DNA from: Nitrospirota bacterium
GTDB lineage: Bacteria > Nitrospirota > Thermodesulfovibrionia > Thermodesulfovibrionales > UBA6898
Reading direction: 5' to 3'
NCBI GenBank assembly: GCA_016235245.1
Contig: JACRLO010000037.1
Coordinates: 1 to 44,135, forward strand
Length of the DNA: 44,135 bases
How positions within the stretch are numbered: position 1 is the stretch's first letter; each line of letters starts with the position of its first letter. Made by a program: the position numbers and the translations under genes. Below are positions 2-34,511 of the stretch, one piece after another. The notes beneath the pieces are model-generated. The model had not been told where the DNA came from. It made no database searches and worked only from the letters and a program-made list of their open reading frames with translations.

Positions 2-1219
2 GTGAATATGCGGCCAGAAGTACGCAGAAGAATATTGATCATCACCGTCTCGCTTGCGGTCATTCTTGCTCTCGTATACGGCTTCATGCCGAAGCCTGTG
101 CGGGTTGATCTCGCGCAGGTGAAGAAGGGGGCCATGAGGGTGACCATAGACGAAGAAGGAAAGACGCGGGTAAAAGACCGCTTTATCGTGTCAGCTCCTG
201 TTGCAGGTTTCCTGCGCCGCGTTGAACTTGAAGTAGGGGATGCAATAAAGAAGGGGCAGGTTGTGGCCGAGCTTGAGCCGCTCCGTTCTTCAGTCCTTGA
301 CCCAAGGAGCAGGGCAGAGGCCCTTGCTGCTGTTTCAGCAGCCCAGGCAACGCTCAATGCGGTCAGGGAGGAAGAACGTTCTGCAGAGGCATCTGCTGAT
401 TATGCAAGAAAGAACATTGAGCGTCAGAAAAAGCTTTTCGAATCGGGCTATGTTGCCAAGGACACCCTCGATCAGGCTGACGCTGACGCAAAGAGGACCG
501 AGGCGGGCCGCCTCTCGGCAGAGGCGCGGGTAAAGGCTGCGCGGGCAGAGCTGGAGCGCGCAAGAAGCCTGTTGGGCCATTCTGCTGCTGAAGGGACTGT
601 TGACCGGGAGAGGGTCGTGACAGTCAGGGCGCCGGCTGCGGGCAGGGTTCTGAAAATCAATCACGAGAGTGAAGGCGTGATTGCTGGCGGCGAGCCGGTG
701 ATCGAGATCGGGGACCCCGAGACGATCGAGGTGAAGGCAGAGGTCCTTTCTGCGGAGGCAGTAAAGATCAAGCCGGGCGGGGCCGTACTCTTTGAGCGCT
801 GGGGAGGCAGTGAACCGCTCTCCGGCCTGGTGCGGGTCATCGAGCCTGCGGCATTCACGAAGATATCGAGTCTCGGCGTGGAGGAGCAGAGGGTGCTGGT
901 GATAGCAGACATAACCTCAGTGCCTGAGGCCTGGAAAAGGTTAGGAGACGGGTATCGGGTCGAGGCGAGCTTTGTGATATGGGAGGGCAGGGATGTTCTG
1001 CAGGTACCTTCGAGCGCACTCTTCAGAAAGGGTGAGGGATGGGCGGTTTTTGTTGCTGATAAGAACAGGGCACGTCTGAGAGAGGTCAATGTCGGCCATA
1101 GAAACGGCCTTGTGGCAGAGATCGTTTCAGGTCTGACCGGGAAGGAGCAGGTCATCACTCATCCAGACGAATTGATAAAGGACGGTGTCAGAGTGCGCCT
1201 GAGAAATAGCGGGAAATAA
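2..1219 (+). CDS. HlyD/RND-type membrane fusion (periplasmic adaptor) protein
   Basis: A 405-residue periplasmic adaptor of the kind that bridges an inner-membrane transporter (RND pump or ABC exporter) to an outer-membrane channel. A single N-terminal membrane anchor lies at about residues 10-28 after an Arg-rich start. It is followed by a lipoyl/barrel-sandwich half (about 60-95), an Ala/Glu/Arg-rich coiled-coil hairpin (about 100-195), the second lipoyl half (about 205-240) and beta-barrel/membrane-proximal segments to the end. The start is a GTG at the second base of the window, with an ATG two codons later. The ribosome binding site lies outside the window, so the start is uncertain. The transporter partner is not in view; the gene downstream is not a pump. 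The substrate cannot be told from sequence. Confidence 0.85.
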   Translation: MNMRPEVRRRILIITVSLAVILALVYGFMPKPVRVDLAQVKKGAMRVTIDEEGKTRVKDRFIVSAPVAGFLRRVELEVGDAIKKGQVVAELEPLRSSVLDPRSRAEALAAVSAAQATLNAVREEERSAEASADYARKNIERQKKLFESGYVAKDTLDQADADAKRTEAGRLSAEARVKAARAELERARSLLGHSAAEGTVDRERVVTVRAPAAGRVLKINHESEGVIAGGEPVIEIGDPETIEVKAEVLSAEAVKIKPGGAVLFERWGGSEPLSGLVRVIEPAAFTKISSLGVEEQRVLVIADITSVPEAWKRLGDGYRVEASFVIWEGRDVLQVPSSALFRKGEGWAVFVADKNRARLREVNVGHRNGLVAEIVSGLTGKEQVITHPDELIKDGVRVRLRNSGK

Positions 1220-1341
1220 TGGAGAGGACAGAAGTCCTTTATCTGTCAAAGAACATAAAACAGGACATTAGAGATTATTTCGATGTAAATCCTGTTTGGA
1301 GACTGTTAATATATGCAGCGATGAAGGAGAAGAGGAATTGA
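1219..1341 (+). CDS. Possible 40-residue leader ORF coupled to the upstream stop
   Basis: An ATG overlaps the TAA of the adaptor gene (TAATG) and opens a 40-codon frame ending in TGA at 1339-1341. The peptide begins MERTEVLYLSKN and ends AAMKEKRN. It overlaps the N-terminal part of the next gene in a different frame. It may be a short coupled ORF that hands ribosomes to the next gene, whose internal ATG at 1353 lies 11 bases past this stop. It may also be the true N-terminus of that gene separated by a frameshift, or chance. No family is recognised. Confidence 0.3.
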   Translation: MERTEVLYLSKNIKQDIRDYFDVNPVWRLLIYAAMKEKRN

Positions 1342-2360
1342 GGAAATATGTTATGGAAGCGTCTCCGCTTGGGCCTTCGCGAAAGGTGAAGGCAGCTATC
1401 CGCAAAGCCGTCAAGGACATTAATATGCAGCCAGAGGAAGGGTGGGCGCGTCTTGAGCGGCTGTTTCTTTCAAAATTTGGAATTGGCAAAGAAAGTCTTC
1501 TCTTTGCCAATTCACTGAAAGAGCTTTTGTTTGCCATCTGCCGGAGTCTCAGGCCAAGGAGAATACTGATTATTGGTCCTGCATTAAACATCTACCGGGA
1601 GGCTGCCCAGGCTGCCGGTGCGGTTATTGAATCTCTGTGTGGCAAGGAAGAGGGCTTCTTTCTTCCTGATATGTGCGCCCTTGTCGAAAAGGCCGAGGGC
1701 TCAGACCTCGTCTTTATCGCAAACCCCAACAGGATCAGCGGCAAAGTTATGTCCGACGCAGTGTTGAAGCAGCTGCTCGCAGCTCTTGCCCTGAAGGACT
1801 GTGTTACGGTAATTGATGAAGCGCTTATGGAGTTTGTAGAGGAAGAGGGTTTTATCCGGAGAGCCGGACAGAACGGCCGTATTATTGTTCTCAGGACTAC
1901 AGCCTATTACTTTGGTCTGCCTGGGCTTGAGCTTGCCTGTGCAGTGTCAGCTCCGAAGGCGATTGCGTCCCTGAGGCGGCAGTTGCAGAGTGATCCGAGC
2001 ATCCCTGCGATGGAGGCAGCACGCACGGCACTCAAGGACAGGACGTACAGAAGAGTAATGGACAAATTTATGAAAGAAGAGAAACTGCTCTTAAGAAAAG
2101 CGATCAGCAGAATGCCCGGAATGGTTATGTTTGATTCTGATACCAATATCGTTCTTCTGAAGGCTGTTAATCTTGCTGTTGAGATTGCCCGTAAGGCAGC
2201 TGGGGCGGGGCTTGCCGTTGACCCCTGTTCTGATTGTGACGGACTTAATGATGCATTTCTCAGAATCTCGGTGATGAAGCATGATCATAACCGTAAACTT
2301 ATCAAGCTGCTCAATGGGATCAGTCTGGAAGATGCAGAGAAGAAGAGCGGCGCTGCTTAA
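1296..2360 (+). CDS. CobD/HisC-like fold type I aminotransferase homologue lacking the PLP lysine
   Basis: A 354-residue protein with the layout of histidinol-phosphate aminotransferase or CobD (threonine-phosphate decarboxylase). It has a PLGPS motif near residue 24, NPN at 143-145, and the cofactor-contacting Asp in VIDEALMEF at about 172-180. Where CobD/HisC carry a Ser/Thr-x-Lys before F-x-L-P-G-L-R, this protein reads RTTAYYFGLPGLEL (200-213). The Schiff-base lysine aligns with Tyr204 and the following Arg with Glu. The glycine-rich phosphate site is also altered (ANSLKEL, 71-77). It may therefore not be an active PLP enzyme; this is inference from motif alignment by eye. TTG at 1296 is the longest start and has no clear ribosome site. 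ATG at 1353, after an AGGA, is a good alternative. The gene converges on the next one with an 11-base gap. Confidence 0.75.
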   Translation: METVNICSDEGEEELRKYVMEASPLGPSRKVKAAIRKAVKDINMQPEEGWARLERLFLSKFGIGKESLLFANSLKELLFAICRSLRPRRILIIGPALNIYREAAQAAGAVIESLCGKEEGFFLPDMCALVEKAEGSDLVFIANPNRISGKVMSDAVLKQLLAALALKDCVTVIDEALMEFVEEEGFIRRAGQNGRIIVLRTTAYYFGLPGLELACAVSAPKAIASLRRQLQSDPSIPAMEAARTALKDRTYRRVMDKFMKEEKLLLRKAISRMPGMVMFDSDTNIVLLKAVNLAVEIARKAAGAGLAVDPCSDCDGLNDAFLRISVMKHDHNRKLIKLLNGISLEDAEKKSGAA

Positions 2361-2371
2361 CACGTAAGGGG

Positions 2372-4351
2372 CTACGAGATGCTGTGTATTTTGGTGTAAC
2401 CGGATGCACTGAGCAGCGACTCTCCCCTGAGATTGATCATTTCGATAAAAGACTCAACCACATAGGGATCAAATTGTTTACCTGCGTTGAGGAAGAGCTC
2501 CTCCTTGACCTGATAGATCGAGAGGGCTTTCCGGTAAGACCGCTCCGACATCATGGCATCAAAAGTATCAACCACAGAAAGAATCCGTGCCTTAAGCGAT
2601 AGTTCCTCTCCTCTTAGCCCATAAGGATAACCCGCGCCGTCATAGCGCTCGTGGTGCTGGATGATAGTCTGCCTTACTCCTTCGAGGGTGTCGATCGGGC
2701 TCAGGATCTCTTCTCCGATGAGCGGATGAGATTTGATCAAACTGTATTCTTTTGACGTGAGTTTGCCCTGCTTCTGCAGGATGAAACTCTCGATACCGAT
2801 CTTGCCGATGTCGTGCAGAATGGATGCATGCTCGAGGATCTCAAGCTCTTTATAATCAAGGCCGATGAACCTGCCGAGTTCAAGGGCAAGGAGCTTGACT
2901 CTTTCTGAATGCCCCTTTGAGTAAAGATCGCTTGCCTCGAGGGCATTGACCAAAGACTGAATAGTGGCAAAATAGTTTCTTTTCACACTTTCATAAAGCC
3001 AGGCATTTTCCATCGAAACGATCGCCTGGTTTGAAAGGGTTGTCAGGATTTCCATGTCCTCGTCAGAAAAGGCTGATCCATTCTGCTTCATTTCGAGGAT
3101 CATTGTCCCTATAATCTCCCCTTTCATCTTAAGCGGCACCCCTATTTTTGACAAAGGGTCATTGCCATGCTGAAGCAGGATTGGCTTGCCCTGAGCCATA
3201 ACTTCGGTGTAATAAGCCTGATATTCCAGAGGCACATCTACGATGCTCTCTGTGCCAAGTCCCCTCCTGTACTGAATAATGAGGGGAGGCTGATTTGCGT
3301 TGCGGATGTGAAGAATGGCCCGTTCCGTGTTGAAGAGGTCAGCGGTGGTCCTGGTGATGATCTTCATGACCTCCTCAGTTTCGACAATGGAGGTCAGAAT
3401 CCTGCCGACCTCGTTCATTTTTTTGAGGCGCTCGACGACCTTTTCAAGTTCCTTGTTCTTTCCCTTAACTTCTTTTGACAGCGAGGTGATAGCTTTGTTT
3501 GCCGTCTCGAGTTCCTTAAGTCTGAACTCAAGCTGGGAGTTGAGGTCCTCGACCTTGTTCTTATGCTCGAGATCCATCCTGATTCTGGAAAGCTCCCGTT
3601 CTTTGGAGAGATTTTTTTTATACAGTTTGTTCATCTCATCGATCATCCTGTTAAAGGCAGTACCGATGGTGCCAAGCTCATCTTTGCTTGATCCCTGAAC
3701 GGTGGCGTTCCAATTGCCTCCCTCAACTTCCTGAATCGTGGTGAGGAGGTTCTTAAGCGGCGTCATCACGAAACGAGAGAAGAGCAGGCTCAGAACAACC
3801 GATATCACGATTACAATAATGATGTTCGAAAAGACGAGCATTCTTTTGATGGACAGCATTGTTGAGAAATTCCTCGATACGTCAAGCTTTACCTGGATGA
3901 CACCGATAATCATTTCCCTGCTGTCATGACAAGCAAAGCATTCCTGTCTGTTTGCAATGTTACGGAAATAGCTGATCGTGCTGTTGTTCTGGACAACCGG
4001 CTTCTGGTGTATTTCATGTGTCGCAATCTTCATATAATCGGGGGATTTGGCGCCAATCTCCGACATGTTGGTAGATTTCAGGATTGTGCCGGCAGGCGAA
4101 AGTATCCTGACATGCACGATTTCCTTATTCTTTCCGATATTTTCGAGGATCTTCTGGACTTCCTGGGTGTTACCCAATTTCATGTCGTGAGCTATGGTGC
4201 GCTCGATGATATCACCTAAAAAAATGGTGTCATCGACCTTTGATTCGATCATCTTGGTGTTCTGCATTCTGAGAACGACAGCTGTCGTGATGCCGACCGT
4301 AATGATGATGGTGAAGGCTATTACCGCAATAATCTTGGTTTTGATAATCAT
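2372..4351 (-). CDS. Membrane HD-GYP c-di-GMP phosphodiesterase with periplasmic c-haem (CXXCH) sensor
   Basis: A 659-residue signalling protein. TM1 lies at about 5-27 and is followed by a periplasmic sensor (28-170) containing one covalent-haem motif, C138-F-A-C141-H142. TM2 is at about 171-194, then HAMP (192-245), a coiled coil (245-315), a GAF domain (315-450) and an HD-GYP domain (455-650). The HD pair is H513-D514 and the signature region reads HHERYDGAGYP at about 566-576. HD-GYP domains hydrolyse cyclic di-GMP; haem-bearing periplasmic sensors of this layout usually respond to redox state or small gaseous ligands. The ligand here is inference. The gene is transcribed divergently from der. 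PilZ proteins encoded nearby could read the c-di-GMP level. All domain landmarks are intact. Confidence 0.9.
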   Translation of the reverse strand: MIIKTKIIAVIAFTIIITVGITTAVVLRMQNTKMIESKVDDTIFLGDIIERTIAHDMKLGNTQEVQKILENIGKNKEIVHVRILSPAGTILKSTNMSEIGAKSPDYMKIATHEIHQKPVVQNNSTISYFRNIANRQECFACHDSREMIIGVIQVKLDVSRNFSTMLSIKRMLVFSNIIIVIVISVVLSLLFSRFVMTPLKNLLTTIQEVEGGNWNATVQGSSKDELGTIGTAFNRMIDEMNKLYKKNLSKERELSRIRMDLEHKNKVEDLNSQLEFRLKELETANKAITSLSKEVKGKNKELEKVVERLKKMNEVGRILTSIVETEEVMKIITRTTADLFNTERAILHIRNANQPPLIIQYRRGLGTESIVDVPLEYQAYYTEVMAQGKPILLQHGNDPLSKIGVPLKMKGEIIGTMILEMKQNGSAFSDEDMEILTTLSNQAIVSMENAWLYESVKRNYFATIQSLVNALEASDLYSKGHSERVKLLALELGRFIGLDYKELEILEHASILHDIGKIGIESFILQKQGKLTSKEYSLIKSHPLIGEEILSPIDTLEGVRQTIIQHHERYDGAGYPYGLRGEELSLKARILSVVDTFDAMMSERSYRKALSIYQVKEELFLNAGKQFDPYVVESFIEMINLRGESLLSASGYTKIHSIS

Positions 4352-4534: not shown

Positions 4535-5851
4535 ATGAGAAAACCTTTTGTTGTGATTGTAGGCAGGCCAAACGTCGGGAAGTCCACCCTCTTTAACCGG
4601 ATGACCGGAACACATTCAGCAATTGTTGAAGACATCCCCGGTGTTACACGGGACCGGAACTACCTTGACGCAGAGTGGGAAGGCAAAAGCTATATGCTGG
4701 TCGATACCGGAGGTTTTTATATCGACCCGCCTGAGGACATCTTTGCCCAGGCCAAGGAGCAGGCTCTCTTTGCCATTGAGGAGGGCGACATTATCCTTCA
4801 CCTCCTTGACGGCAAGGATGGCCTCACACCTGCTGACATGGAACTGGCCCGCCTTATCCGCACCTCGGGCAAGAAAGTCATCTGGCTGGTAAACAAGATC
4901 GATGCACCGGTAAGGGACGAAAGGTTCTATGATTTTTATGCCATCGGCGCGGATGACCTTTATCCCGTTTCTGCAGCCACCGGATACGGGTATGACGACT
5001 TCATGGACATCCTGGGTGCGTTGCTTCCGGAATACCATGAAGAAAAAACCGAATATCCCAAGATAGCGGTTGTCGGAAGGCCGAATGTCGGCAAGTCGAC
5101 ACTGGTCAATGCTCTAACGGGCAAGAAGCGTATGGTCGTGAGTGACGTGGCAGGGACTACAAGGGATTCTATTGACAGCCCCTGTACCTTCCACGGCAAG
5201 AAGTATATGATCATCGACACGGCAGGGCTCAGGAAAAAAGGCAAGGTCGGGTACTCGCTTGAGCGGTTCTCCATGGTGCGGGCGGTCAGGAGCATTGAAC
5301 GCTGCGATGTTGCGCTCGTTGTTCTGGACATGAGTGTCGGAATTACCGAGCAGGACCAGAAGATCGCCGGCATCGTCAAGGACTACAATAAGGGTGTCGT
5401 ATTCCTCCTCAACAAATGGGACCTTGTGACTAATCCTGAGGAGACCTTTAAAAACGTTCTGCCTGAACTGTACCGGAAGGTCTGGTTCGCTGAATATGCG
5501 CCGGCGATCACCATATCCGGAGTCTCTAAAAAAAGGATTACCAAGGTTTTTCCGGTGATCGATGTTATCATCGAAGAACGACGGAAGCGAATCACAACAG
5601 GAGAACTGAACAGGTTTTTCCGCGAGATCATTGCAACAATTTCACTTCCTATGTATAAGGGCAAGGAAGTAAAGATGTACTATATGACCCAGGTGGGTAT
5701 CGAGCCTCCGGCATTTGTTGTTTTCTCGAATTACCGAAACGCGGTGATGGACTCTCACCTCAGATATATCGAGAGGAAGCTGCGGGAGTATTTCGGCTTC
5801 GGGGGAACGCCGATCAAGATCCATGTGAGGCCAAAAAAGAGAGATGCCTGA
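4535..5851 (+). CDS. der: Ribosome-assembly GTPase Der (EngA)
   Basis: A 438-residue double GTPase needed for 50S subunit maturation. Both G domains are complete. The first has GRPNVGKST near residue 10, DTGG and NKID. The second has GRPNVGKST near residue 185, DTAG and NKWD. A KH-like C-terminal domain (about 355-438) ends in a basic tail. Length is normal for the family. The start ATG has no strong Shine-Dalgarno sequence. The gene is followed almost immediately by the YihY-family gene, so der probably heads this operon. Identification is secure. Confidence 0.97.
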   Translation: MRKPFVVIVGRPNVGKSTLFNRMTGTHSAIVEDIPGVTRDRNYLDAEWEGKSYMLVDTGGFYIDPPEDIFAQAKEQALFAIEEGDIILHLLDGKDGLTPADMELARLIRTSGKKVIWLVNKIDAPVRDERFYDFYAIGADDLYPVSAATGYGYDDFMDILGALLPEYHEEKTEYPKIAVVGRPNVGKSTLVNALTGKKRMVVSDVAGTTRDSIDSPCTFHGKKYMIIDTAGLRKKGKVGYSLERFSMVRAVRSIERCDVALVVLDMSVGITEQDQKIAGIVKDYNKGVVFLLNKWDLVTNPEETFKNVLPELYRKVWFAEYAPAITISGVSKKRITKVFPVIDVIIEERRKRITTGELNRFFREIIATISLPMYKGKEVKMYYMTQVGIEPPAFVVFSNYRNAVMDSHLRYIERKLREYFGFGGTPIKIHVRPKKRDA

Positions 5852-32405: not shown

Positions 32406-34511
32406 GTGCTTGATACACTTTTCTATCCAAAGTCTGTGGCTGTAGTCGGTGCTTCTCAGGACCCGCAGAAGGTCGGCTATGCAATCCTTGACAACCTGCT
32501 CAAATTCGGGTATCAGGGCAGGATCTATCCCATAAACCCCAAGGCAGACGAAATCCTCGGCGTCAAGGCTTACAAAAGCATCTTTGATGTGCTGGATGAG
32601 ATAGGTCTCGCTGTTGTCTCGATACCCGCTGCCATGGTGCCTGACTGCATCAGGGACTGCATAAAGAGAGGGATCAGATCAGCGGTGATCATCAGCGCCG
32701 GATTCAAGGAGGCTGGCTCTGCAGGAATTCTGCTTGAGGAAGAGCTCAAGGCTCTCAGAAAAACCGGCAATATCCGAATACTCGGCCCCAACTGTCTCGG
32801 CATCATCAATACAGCAAACGACCTGAATGCCACCTTTGCAGCAGGAATGCTCCCCAAAGGCAGGCTTGCATTTTTTTCCCAGTCAGGGGCCCTCGGCATT
32901 GCGATACTTGACTGGGCGATCGGCAACAAGATCGGTTTTTCAAAGTTCATCAGCCTCGGCAACAAGGCAGATCTGAACGAAACGGACTTCATAGAATATT
33001 TTATGCAGGACCCTGAGACAGATATTATCCTGGGGTATATCGAGGATGTGGTTGAGGGCAGGCGATTTCTTGAGATTGCGAAAAAAGCGACAAAGCTCAA
33101 ACCCATTATCCTTGTCAAATCCGGCGGTACTCAGGCAGGAGCACGCGCTGCATCGTCCCACACCGGTGCCCTTGCAGGGTCTGAAAATGCCTTTAACGCT
33201 GCATTCAGGCAGACAGGGGTTATCAGGGCCGAAGGCGTAGAGGACCTCTTTGAGTCAGCATTAGCATTTCATTCCGGCAAGGTGCCCAGCGGCAACAACC
33301 TGCTGATTATTACGAACGCAGGCGGCCCTGGTATCATTGCTGCAGATACAGCAGAAAAGCTCGGCATCAATCTGCCGCAGCTTTCAAAGGAAACGGTTGA
33401 GCAGCTTATGAAAGTGCTTCCGAAGAACTCGTCGCTCTATAATCCTGTTGACATCATCGGGGATGCGACATCTGAGCGGTACGCTGCAGTGCTCGAGCGC
33501 ACGCTGAATGATCCGAATGTGGACGGCATATTGATTATTCTGACTCCGCAGGCCATGGTGAATGTTGAGGAGACTGCAAAGATCGTTATCGGGTCATCGA
33601 AGAAGACCGACAAGCCCCTGATCACAAGCTTTATGGGAGAGGAGAGGGTGCGGTCGTCAGTGGCCATGCTCAAGGCTGCTGCGATAACGAACTTTTCCTA
33701 TCCTGAGCCGGCGGTGAAGTCCTTCAGAAAACTTTACAATTACGGACTCTGGAGGAAAAAGGCAGAGGAAATACCTTTCTCGCCGGAAGTGAACAGGGAT
33801 GCCGTTGCAGAGATCATCAGAAATGCACGCCAGAATAATCAGATCCAGTTTGCAGAGGACGCGTCACGCGAAATTCTGACGCACTATGGATTCAGGTTCC
33901 CGAAGAAGCAGCTGGTAAAGATGCCGAATGAGGCTGCCAGGGCTGCCGCTGCCATAGGGTTTCCGGTTGTCATGAAGATCTCCTCGCCTGATATCCTTCA
34001 CAAGACCGATATCGGCGGGGTAAAACTCAATATCAGTTCGAAAAAAGAGGCAAAGGATGCATTTACCGAAATAACCCTGAATGCCAGGAAATTCATGCCA
34101 AAGGCATTCATTAGTGGCGTTACGATCTATGAGACGGTGCCAAAGGGCAAAGAGGTTATTCTTGGCATCACCTTTGACAGGACCTTCGGCCATATGATCA
34201 TGTTCGGTCTTGGCGGCATCTACGTTGAGGTGTTGAAGGATGTCTCTTTCAGGATCGTGCCGGTCAGTCTGTCAGAGGCCAGCGAGATGATCCATGAGAT
34301 CAGGACAATCCGGCTCCTTCAGGGTGTTCGAGGAGAGCAGCCTGCGGACATTGATGCTATTGTCCAGAGCATTGTGAGGCTCTCGATGCTCGCAACCGAT
34401 TTTCCCGAGATCCATGAGCTTGATATCAATCCACTCGTTGTGTTTGGAAGCGGGGCCATTGCCCTTGATTCAAGGATCATCCTCAGTCATGAAAATAAAG
34501 GAGGCACGTAA
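32406..34511 (+). CDS. ADP-forming acetyl-CoA synthetase (acyl-CoA synthetase, NDP-forming)
   Basis: A 701-residue fused alpha-beta enzyme. The CoA-binding Rossmann domain (1-125) has SVAVVGAS. Two ligase-CoA domains follow, with the phospho-histidine H252 in SSHTGALAGS. The C-terminal ATP-grasp half (about 475-700) contains FPVVMKISSPDILHKTDIGG and ends HELDINPLVV. These enzymes make ATP while releasing acetate (or another acid) from an acyl-CoA, typical of fermenting anaerobes and archaea. GTG start with AGGA nine bases upstream. The gene is abutted by the DRTGG protein. Acetate as substrate is likely but not certain. Confidence 0.93.
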   Translation: MLDTLFYPKSVAVVGASQDPQKVGYAILDNLLKFGYQGRIYPINPKADEILGVKAYKSIFDVLDEIGLAVVSIPAAMVPDCIRDCIKRGIRSAVIISAGFKEAGSAGILLEEELKALRKTGNIRILGPNCLGIINTANDLNATFAAGMLPKGRLAFFSQSGALGIAILDWAIGNKIGFSKFISLGNKADLNETDFIEYFMQDPETDIILGYIEDVVEGRRFLEIAKKATKLKPIILVKSGGTQAGARAASSHTGALAGSENAFNAAFRQTGVIRAEGVEDLFESALAFHSGKVPSGNNLLIITNAGGPGIIAADTAEKLGINLPQLSKETVEQLMKVLPKNSSLYNPVDIIGDATSERYAAVLERTLNDPNVDGILIILTPQAMVNVEETAKIVIGSSKKTDKPLITSFMGEERVRSSVAMLKAAAITNFSYPEPAVKSFRKLYNYGLWRKKAEEIPFSPEVNRDAVAEIIRNARQNNQIQFAEDASREILTHYGFRFPKKQLVKMPNEAARAAAAIGFPVVMKISSPDILHKTDIGGVKLNISSKKEAKDAFTEITLNARKFMPKAFISGVTIYETVPKGKEVILGITFDRTFGHMIMFGLGGIYVEVLKDVSFRIVPVSLSEASEMIHEIRTIRLLQGVRGEQPADIDAIVQSIVRLSMLATDFPEIHELDINPLVVFGSGAIALDSRIILSHENKGGT

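Follow-up and report, generated by a model that had tools for sequence, protein, structure and literature searches.

The gene analyzed here lies in a 44,135-nucleotide stretch of Nitrospirota DNA (the window) and probably encodes a PLP-independent pseudoenzyme from the CobD/HisC branch of the fold-type-I aminotransferases, with a rebuilt cofactor pocket and maintained by purifying selection; we put the probability of this reading as a whole at roughly 0.7. Its core, a pseudoenzyme that works without PLP, is highly probable from the comparison of sequences: the catalytic residue has been lost throughout a clade that evolves under purifying selection, and the protein presumably does not bind PLP. 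With less certainty, it would be a binding or regulatory protein rather than a catalyst. A search of the literature available to us found no paper on this Nitrospirota pseudoenzyme family; YwlG (PMC9522360), which turned up in it, was set aside as having an unrelated fold.

Gene, start codon and fold

The mechanical open reading frame listing gives an intact frame at 1296-2360 on the forward strand, beginning at a TTG at 1296, and the first-pass annotation had taken its 354 codons as they stood. The frame is indeed intact, but the TTG at 1338 is the likelier start, because the orthologue L034 begins with MKRYVMETSPLGPS, to which the window protein aligns as (TTG)RKYVMEASPLGPS, and because a sequence resembling a ribosome-binding site, AAGGAG (1324..1329, +), can be read directly 8 bases before it. 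With this probable start the gene spans 1338..2360 (+) and encodes 340 amino acids, so that the residue earlier numbered Tyr204 becomes Tyr190. Near the N-terminus lies a hyperconserved block, PLGPSRKVKAAIRK (1365..1406, +), in which G12, P13, S14, R22 and K23 are invariant in the clade. Nothing resembling a sigma-70 promoter was detected upstream of the gene, and Rfam and tRNA searches over the whole window gave no matches. An exact 8-base inverted repeat, AAACAGGA ... TCCTGTTT, at 1258-1297, lies between the preceding adaptor gene and the pseudoenzyme gene, and may be due to chance or may be an operator.

The CobD/HisC scaffold that had been proposed for the protein is borne out. It matches the Pfam family Aminotran_1_2 (PF00155) with 70.9 bits against a cut-off of 19.7 (E 1.5e-19), and its closest solved relative is CobD of Salmonella (1lc5; phmmer E 1.5e-27). 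An AF2 model (pLDDT 89.6) superimposes on 1lc5 with a Z score of 36.8 and an rmsd of 2.3 over 326 residues at 23% identity, and Foldseek concurs. By its superfamily domain and predicted fold, the protein is thus aminotransferase-like, of fold type I and nearest to CobD, the L-threonine-O-3-phosphate decarboxylase. Judged by its sequence, it is nevertheless not a CobD. Among NCBIfam equivalogs the CobD profile, TIGR01140, scores it best, but the 140 bits obtained, like the values of the orthologues tested (at most 193), miss the cut-off of 290.55, which the CobD of the window's own genome exceeds (340.5 bits). The pseudoenzyme shares with CobD (PDB 1lc5/1lc7/1lc8/1lkc) the fold, the length and the equivalents of Asp185 and Arg337; it lacks K216, R224, N157, F188 and the cup glycine, its gene is not found beside CbiB, and it occurs in genomes without B12 genes. 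With HisC it has in common the fold, the superfamily and an N-terminal PLGPS, but it falls below the cut-off of TIGR01141 (132 bits, with a range of 132-179 overall, against 276.55), has no PLP lysine and belongs to a separate clade.

A cofactor site changed residue by residue

Active-site residues were compared in an alignment of 1lc5, 29 CobD-type rows and 21 orthologues of the window protein; reference positions below are those of CobD. The Schiff-base lysine (K216) is replaced by Tyr190 (1905..1907, +; codon TAT), and the arginine that binds the PLP phosphate (R224) by Glu198 (1929..1931, +; codon GAG). Both replacements had been noticed on first reading, and both agree across pairwise, multiple and profile alignments. 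Glu198 is invariant (21/21). At the lysine site, Asn is found in seven orthologues, Tyr in four, Cys in three, Ser, Leu and Phe in two each and His in one, the codons being one to three substitutions away from Lys, and that of Asn, the commonest, one away. The first-pass annotation had named another lysine at this site as what would count against it, and none is present there in any orthologue. It had also proposed looking for the same Lys-to-Tyr change in orthologues: lysine is absent from all 21, but tyrosine itself is not conserved. What is conserved in the alignment is Glu in place of the arginine and Arg in place of the asparagine, not specifically Tyr in place of the lysine.

The second of these concerns the NPN motif, described earlier as kept. 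The preceding NPN segment is retained, but the PLP-contacting asparagine (N157, the second Asn of PNNPTG) has become Arg132 (1731..1733, +), with Arg in 19 of the 21 orthologues and Leu in the other two. The alteration of the phosphate-cup glycines was correctly called: G82-N83-G84 of CobD reads A-N-S in the window protein, and Ser59 (1512..1514, +), in place of G84, is found in all 21. Likewise invariant (21/21) are Leu163 (1824..1826, +) in place of F188, the counterpart of Tyr225 in aspartate aminotransferase, and Thr187 (1896..1898, +) in place of S213. Two functional residues are kept without exception: Asp160 (1815..1817, +), equivalent to D185, which in PLP enzymes pairs with the pyridine nitrogen, and Arg309 (2262..2264, +), equivalent to the substrate-carboxylate arginine R337. 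At the mouth of the pocket, Y56, F108 and R323 drift freely in the clade; conservation of the aromatic ring-stacking residue (F108) and of Tyr56 is lost, the latter being Tyr in 5 of 21. Among the 29 CobD-type rows, lysine is kept in all but one and Arg224 in all, and the CobD proper of the same genomes has all catalytic residues.

The cofactor site thus reads in the alignment as not merely eroded: Ser59, Arg132, Leu163, Thr187 and Glu198 have been fixed anew, and Asp160 and Arg309 retained. Fixation to a new identity affects 5 of 13 PLP-contact positions, a set that we chose from general knowledge of the family, versus 6 of the 315 positions mapped elsewhere (p 1.7e-5 by Fisher's test). Contact positions are thus strongly over-represented among the newly fixed residues: the lysine site itself drifts, yet the floor of the pocket, its geometry taken by homology, appears rebuilt and held. 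What the sequence shows directly is loss of the Schiff-base lysine, inversion of charge at the phosphate arginine, loss of the PLP asparagine, and new residues fixed along the floor of the former cofactor pocket; the protein accordingly would not bind PLP. It may still bind PLP, PMP or another phosphate weakly and non-covalently, because the Asp185 and Arg337 equivalents are kept and the change of Ser213 to Thr is conservative.

These residues also bear on other readings of the protein. Enzymes of this fold without the lysine are known: the nucleotide-sugar 3-dehydratases ColD, E1 and SpnQ use PMP and have a fixed catalytic His instead (PMC8987622). An enzyme of this type, using PMP or PLP, would be in keeping with the retained Asp160, but we regard it as highly improbable, given that His occupies the lysine site in a single orthologue of 21, that this position varies freely, that the phosphate-binding arginine is Glu in every member, and that the PLP asparagine and the phosphate cup are changed. 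Five pocket residues fixed to new identities, one of them an invariant acid, might also suggest that the former cofactor pocket now carries out a new chemistry without PLP. No catalytic or metal site was recognised in it, we know of no precedent for such chemistry in this fold, and we find the idea hard to credit.

More weight is due to a ligand-free scaffold or interaction protein, in which the new residues merely fill the empty cofactor cavity. In its favour, Arg132 and Glu198 could pair in a buried salt bridge where PLP once sat, the mouth of the pocket drifts freely, and the basic N-terminal helix, with its invariant R22 and K23, is hyperconserved. Two members with Leu132 keep Glu198, so that a strict pairing of Arg132 with Glu198 is unnecessary, and the invariant Arg309 would not be needed in a filled pocket. 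We hold this explanation to be possible but tentative.

A single clade under purifying selection

An orthologue was found in 21 of the 27 genomes searched from the same GTDB family of Nitrospirota. In a class-level search of 230 genomes, 20 matches had E values of 1e-124 or below, followed by a gap down to values of at most 1e-84. CobDs sit below this gap, and the top two proteins there (from G192 and G064), read directly, are CobD with the lysine. The 21st member of the clade (L071/L072, G021:C94) misses about 55 internal residues ahead of the NPN loop and retains RTTANFYGLPGLELA. In the tree, the 21 orthologues form one clade with support of 100/100, apart from the 29 CobD-type rows and 2 HisC rows, and they span nine genera of the family. 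No member outside the family turned up among about 85,000 species scanned, in the class or in 395 genomes from the phylum, in searches aimed at the clade itself as distinct from distant lysine-less paralogues. As far as its sequences tell, the clade probably arose once, within one family of Nitrospirota. Six family genomes gave no match to the gene: G005 (same genus, 96% complete) and five less complete ones.

Separately from the clade, a CobD-like protein (L024/L094; G036:C32, about 33352-34356, minus strand) has Phe at the catalytic lysine (RSMSFFYALPGLR, codons TCT TTT TTC) and is otherwise complete, with Arg224, Asn157 and the cup glycines kept. This is either an isolated loss of the lysine or a sequence error.

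Values of dN/dS (NG86) between the window gene and its two closest orthologues are 0.18-0.24, and those of four other close pairs 0.19-0.31; CobD itself gives 0.14-0.16. With such values, the gene is under purifying selection and not decaying, judging from its codons. The loss of catalytic residues might recall a decaying pseudogene, and the named records of the clade, from Nitrospirota, including Thermodesulfovibrionales, are nearly all metagenome assemblies, as an assembly artefact might have it. The frame is nevertheless open in all 20 full-length members checked, dN/dS is well below 1, and identical substitutions recur in nine genera and in independent studies; decay or artefact is refuted as far as sequence allows, and we give it a negligible chance. 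The original suggestion of a conserved, cofactor-dead homologue is thereby strongly supported, with 21 orthologues in one clade, none with the lysine and all with the glutamate, under purifying selection.

CobD and CbiB occur together in 12 of the 27 family genomes, and 10 of the 21 genomes with the pseudoenzyme lack both. A role as a CobD subunit or as an enzyme of B12 synthesis was therefore rejected. More generally, the protein could join an active aminotransferase (HisC, CobD or another) in a hetero-oligomer as its catalytically dead subunit, on the model of LCB1 in serine palmitoyltransferase. LCB1 shows that lysine-less partner subunits of fold type I exist, since it does not have the PLP lysine of LCB2 and works with that active partner (PMC3794620). 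The pseudoenzyme is like LCB1/SPTLC1 in its fold type, in the loss of the PLP lysine and in being conserved for another role; it is unlike it in subfamily, and whereas LCB1 forms a heterodimer with LCB2 (PMC3794620), no such partner was found here. Potential partners are at hand in the window's own genome, which has one CobD and two HisC-type paralogues. Against a dead subunit, the absence of CobD from 10 of the 21 genomes rules CobD out as an obligate partner, leaving HisC and others as candidates, and the pseudoenzyme gene adjoins cobD in no locus read. Tyr56 in this fold reaches into the active site of the partner (Tyr70* in aspartate aminotransferase), and its equivalent is Tyr in just 5 of 21. 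We therefore consider a dead subunit quite unlikely.

Gene neighbourhood and possible role

Neighbours were counted in the stretches read around the 21 loci, several on short contigs, so that the counts are lower bounds. The gene upstream in the window (2..1219, +) encodes an RND/HlyD-type periplasmic adaptor, and this adjacency had been given weight earlier. The adaptor is present here, but it is a neighbour in this genome only and outside the conserved context: across the stretches read, none of the other 20 orthologues has a homologue of the adaptor close by. A link to efflux was rejected. Downstream, on the opposite strand, lies a HAMP-GAF-HD sensor protein (2372..4351, -), a neighbour common to several orthologous loci. 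CFACH, which fits the CxxCH motif for c-type haem, occurs in its sensor segment, and the class 40H chemoreceptor sensor domain matches with 25.8 bits, below the cut-off of 27; the protein is possibly a haem-sensing HD phosphodiesterase, by these motifs. The GTPase gene der (EngA; 4535..5851, +) is a downstream neighbour in 10 of the 21 loci, and yihY lies near the pseudoenzyme gene in nine.

The aconitase-family and Rid-family genes leuC-leuD-RidA are nearby in at least 11 of the 21 loci; seven of these 11 have them upstream in the same orientation as the pseudoenzyme gene and separated from it by no other conserved gene. In the window's own genome, leuCD-RidA is on another contig. In G002 alone, RidA and the pseudoenzyme are separated by a gene (L035:10694-11911) whose product has a Fic-like motif (HPFLDGNGRVAR). 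A DUF815 AAA ATPase is encoded head-to-head with the pseudoenzyme in 8 of the 21 loci (e.g. L045:10936-11814), with a possible shared promoter. In five loci a histidine kinase gene follows the pseudoenzyme in operon-like fashion, and then a response regulator gene where the contig continues. In G016 (L042:1555-3484), and in the same order in G015, G019 and G022, both follow the pseudoenzyme immediately and in its orientation; this type of kinase has no Pfam-recognised sensor domain, and the C-terminal region of the regulator is unmatched in Pfam. The kinase was rejected as an obligate partner, as it occurs apart from the pseudoenzyme in G004, G005 and G020, and at E 1e-45 it was not detected in 14 genomes that carry the pseudoenzyme. 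Overall, the context suggests housekeeping or regulation, and the neighbours (leuC-leuD-RidA, DUF815, Der) point to no single pathway.

For the pseudoenzyme, a regulatory or sensing role is suggested by the conservation of the pocket together with this gene context. The ligand of the rebuilt pocket would be small and either amino-acid-like or carboxylic, Arg309 taking the carboxylate and Glu198 and Asp160 a positively charged group, and occupancy would be relayed to a partner protein. Such a ligand-sensing step with regulatory output is our best guess at the function, though less likely than not, and naming any particular ligand would very likely be wrong. A metabolite sensor with a pocket charge-inverted for an amino-acid-like ligand, signalling in some lineages to partners encoded next to it, is unlikely as a full account; candidate partners would be the histidine kinase and response regulator, the DUF815 ATPase, or RidA/LeuCD.

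To our knowledge, little has been written about stand-alone pseudoenzymes of the aminotransferase fold that have no evident active partner. Automatic annotation would tend to label genes of this family "aminotransferase" or "threonine-phosphate decarboxylase", probably in error. The clade offers a natural series beside the active CobD of the same genomes, in which the cofactor site has been changed residue by residue, and the fate of a cofactor pocket after loss of its cofactor becomes directly testable. In one family of Nitrospirota, an aminotransferase-shaped protein has been kept intact, probably for a different job.
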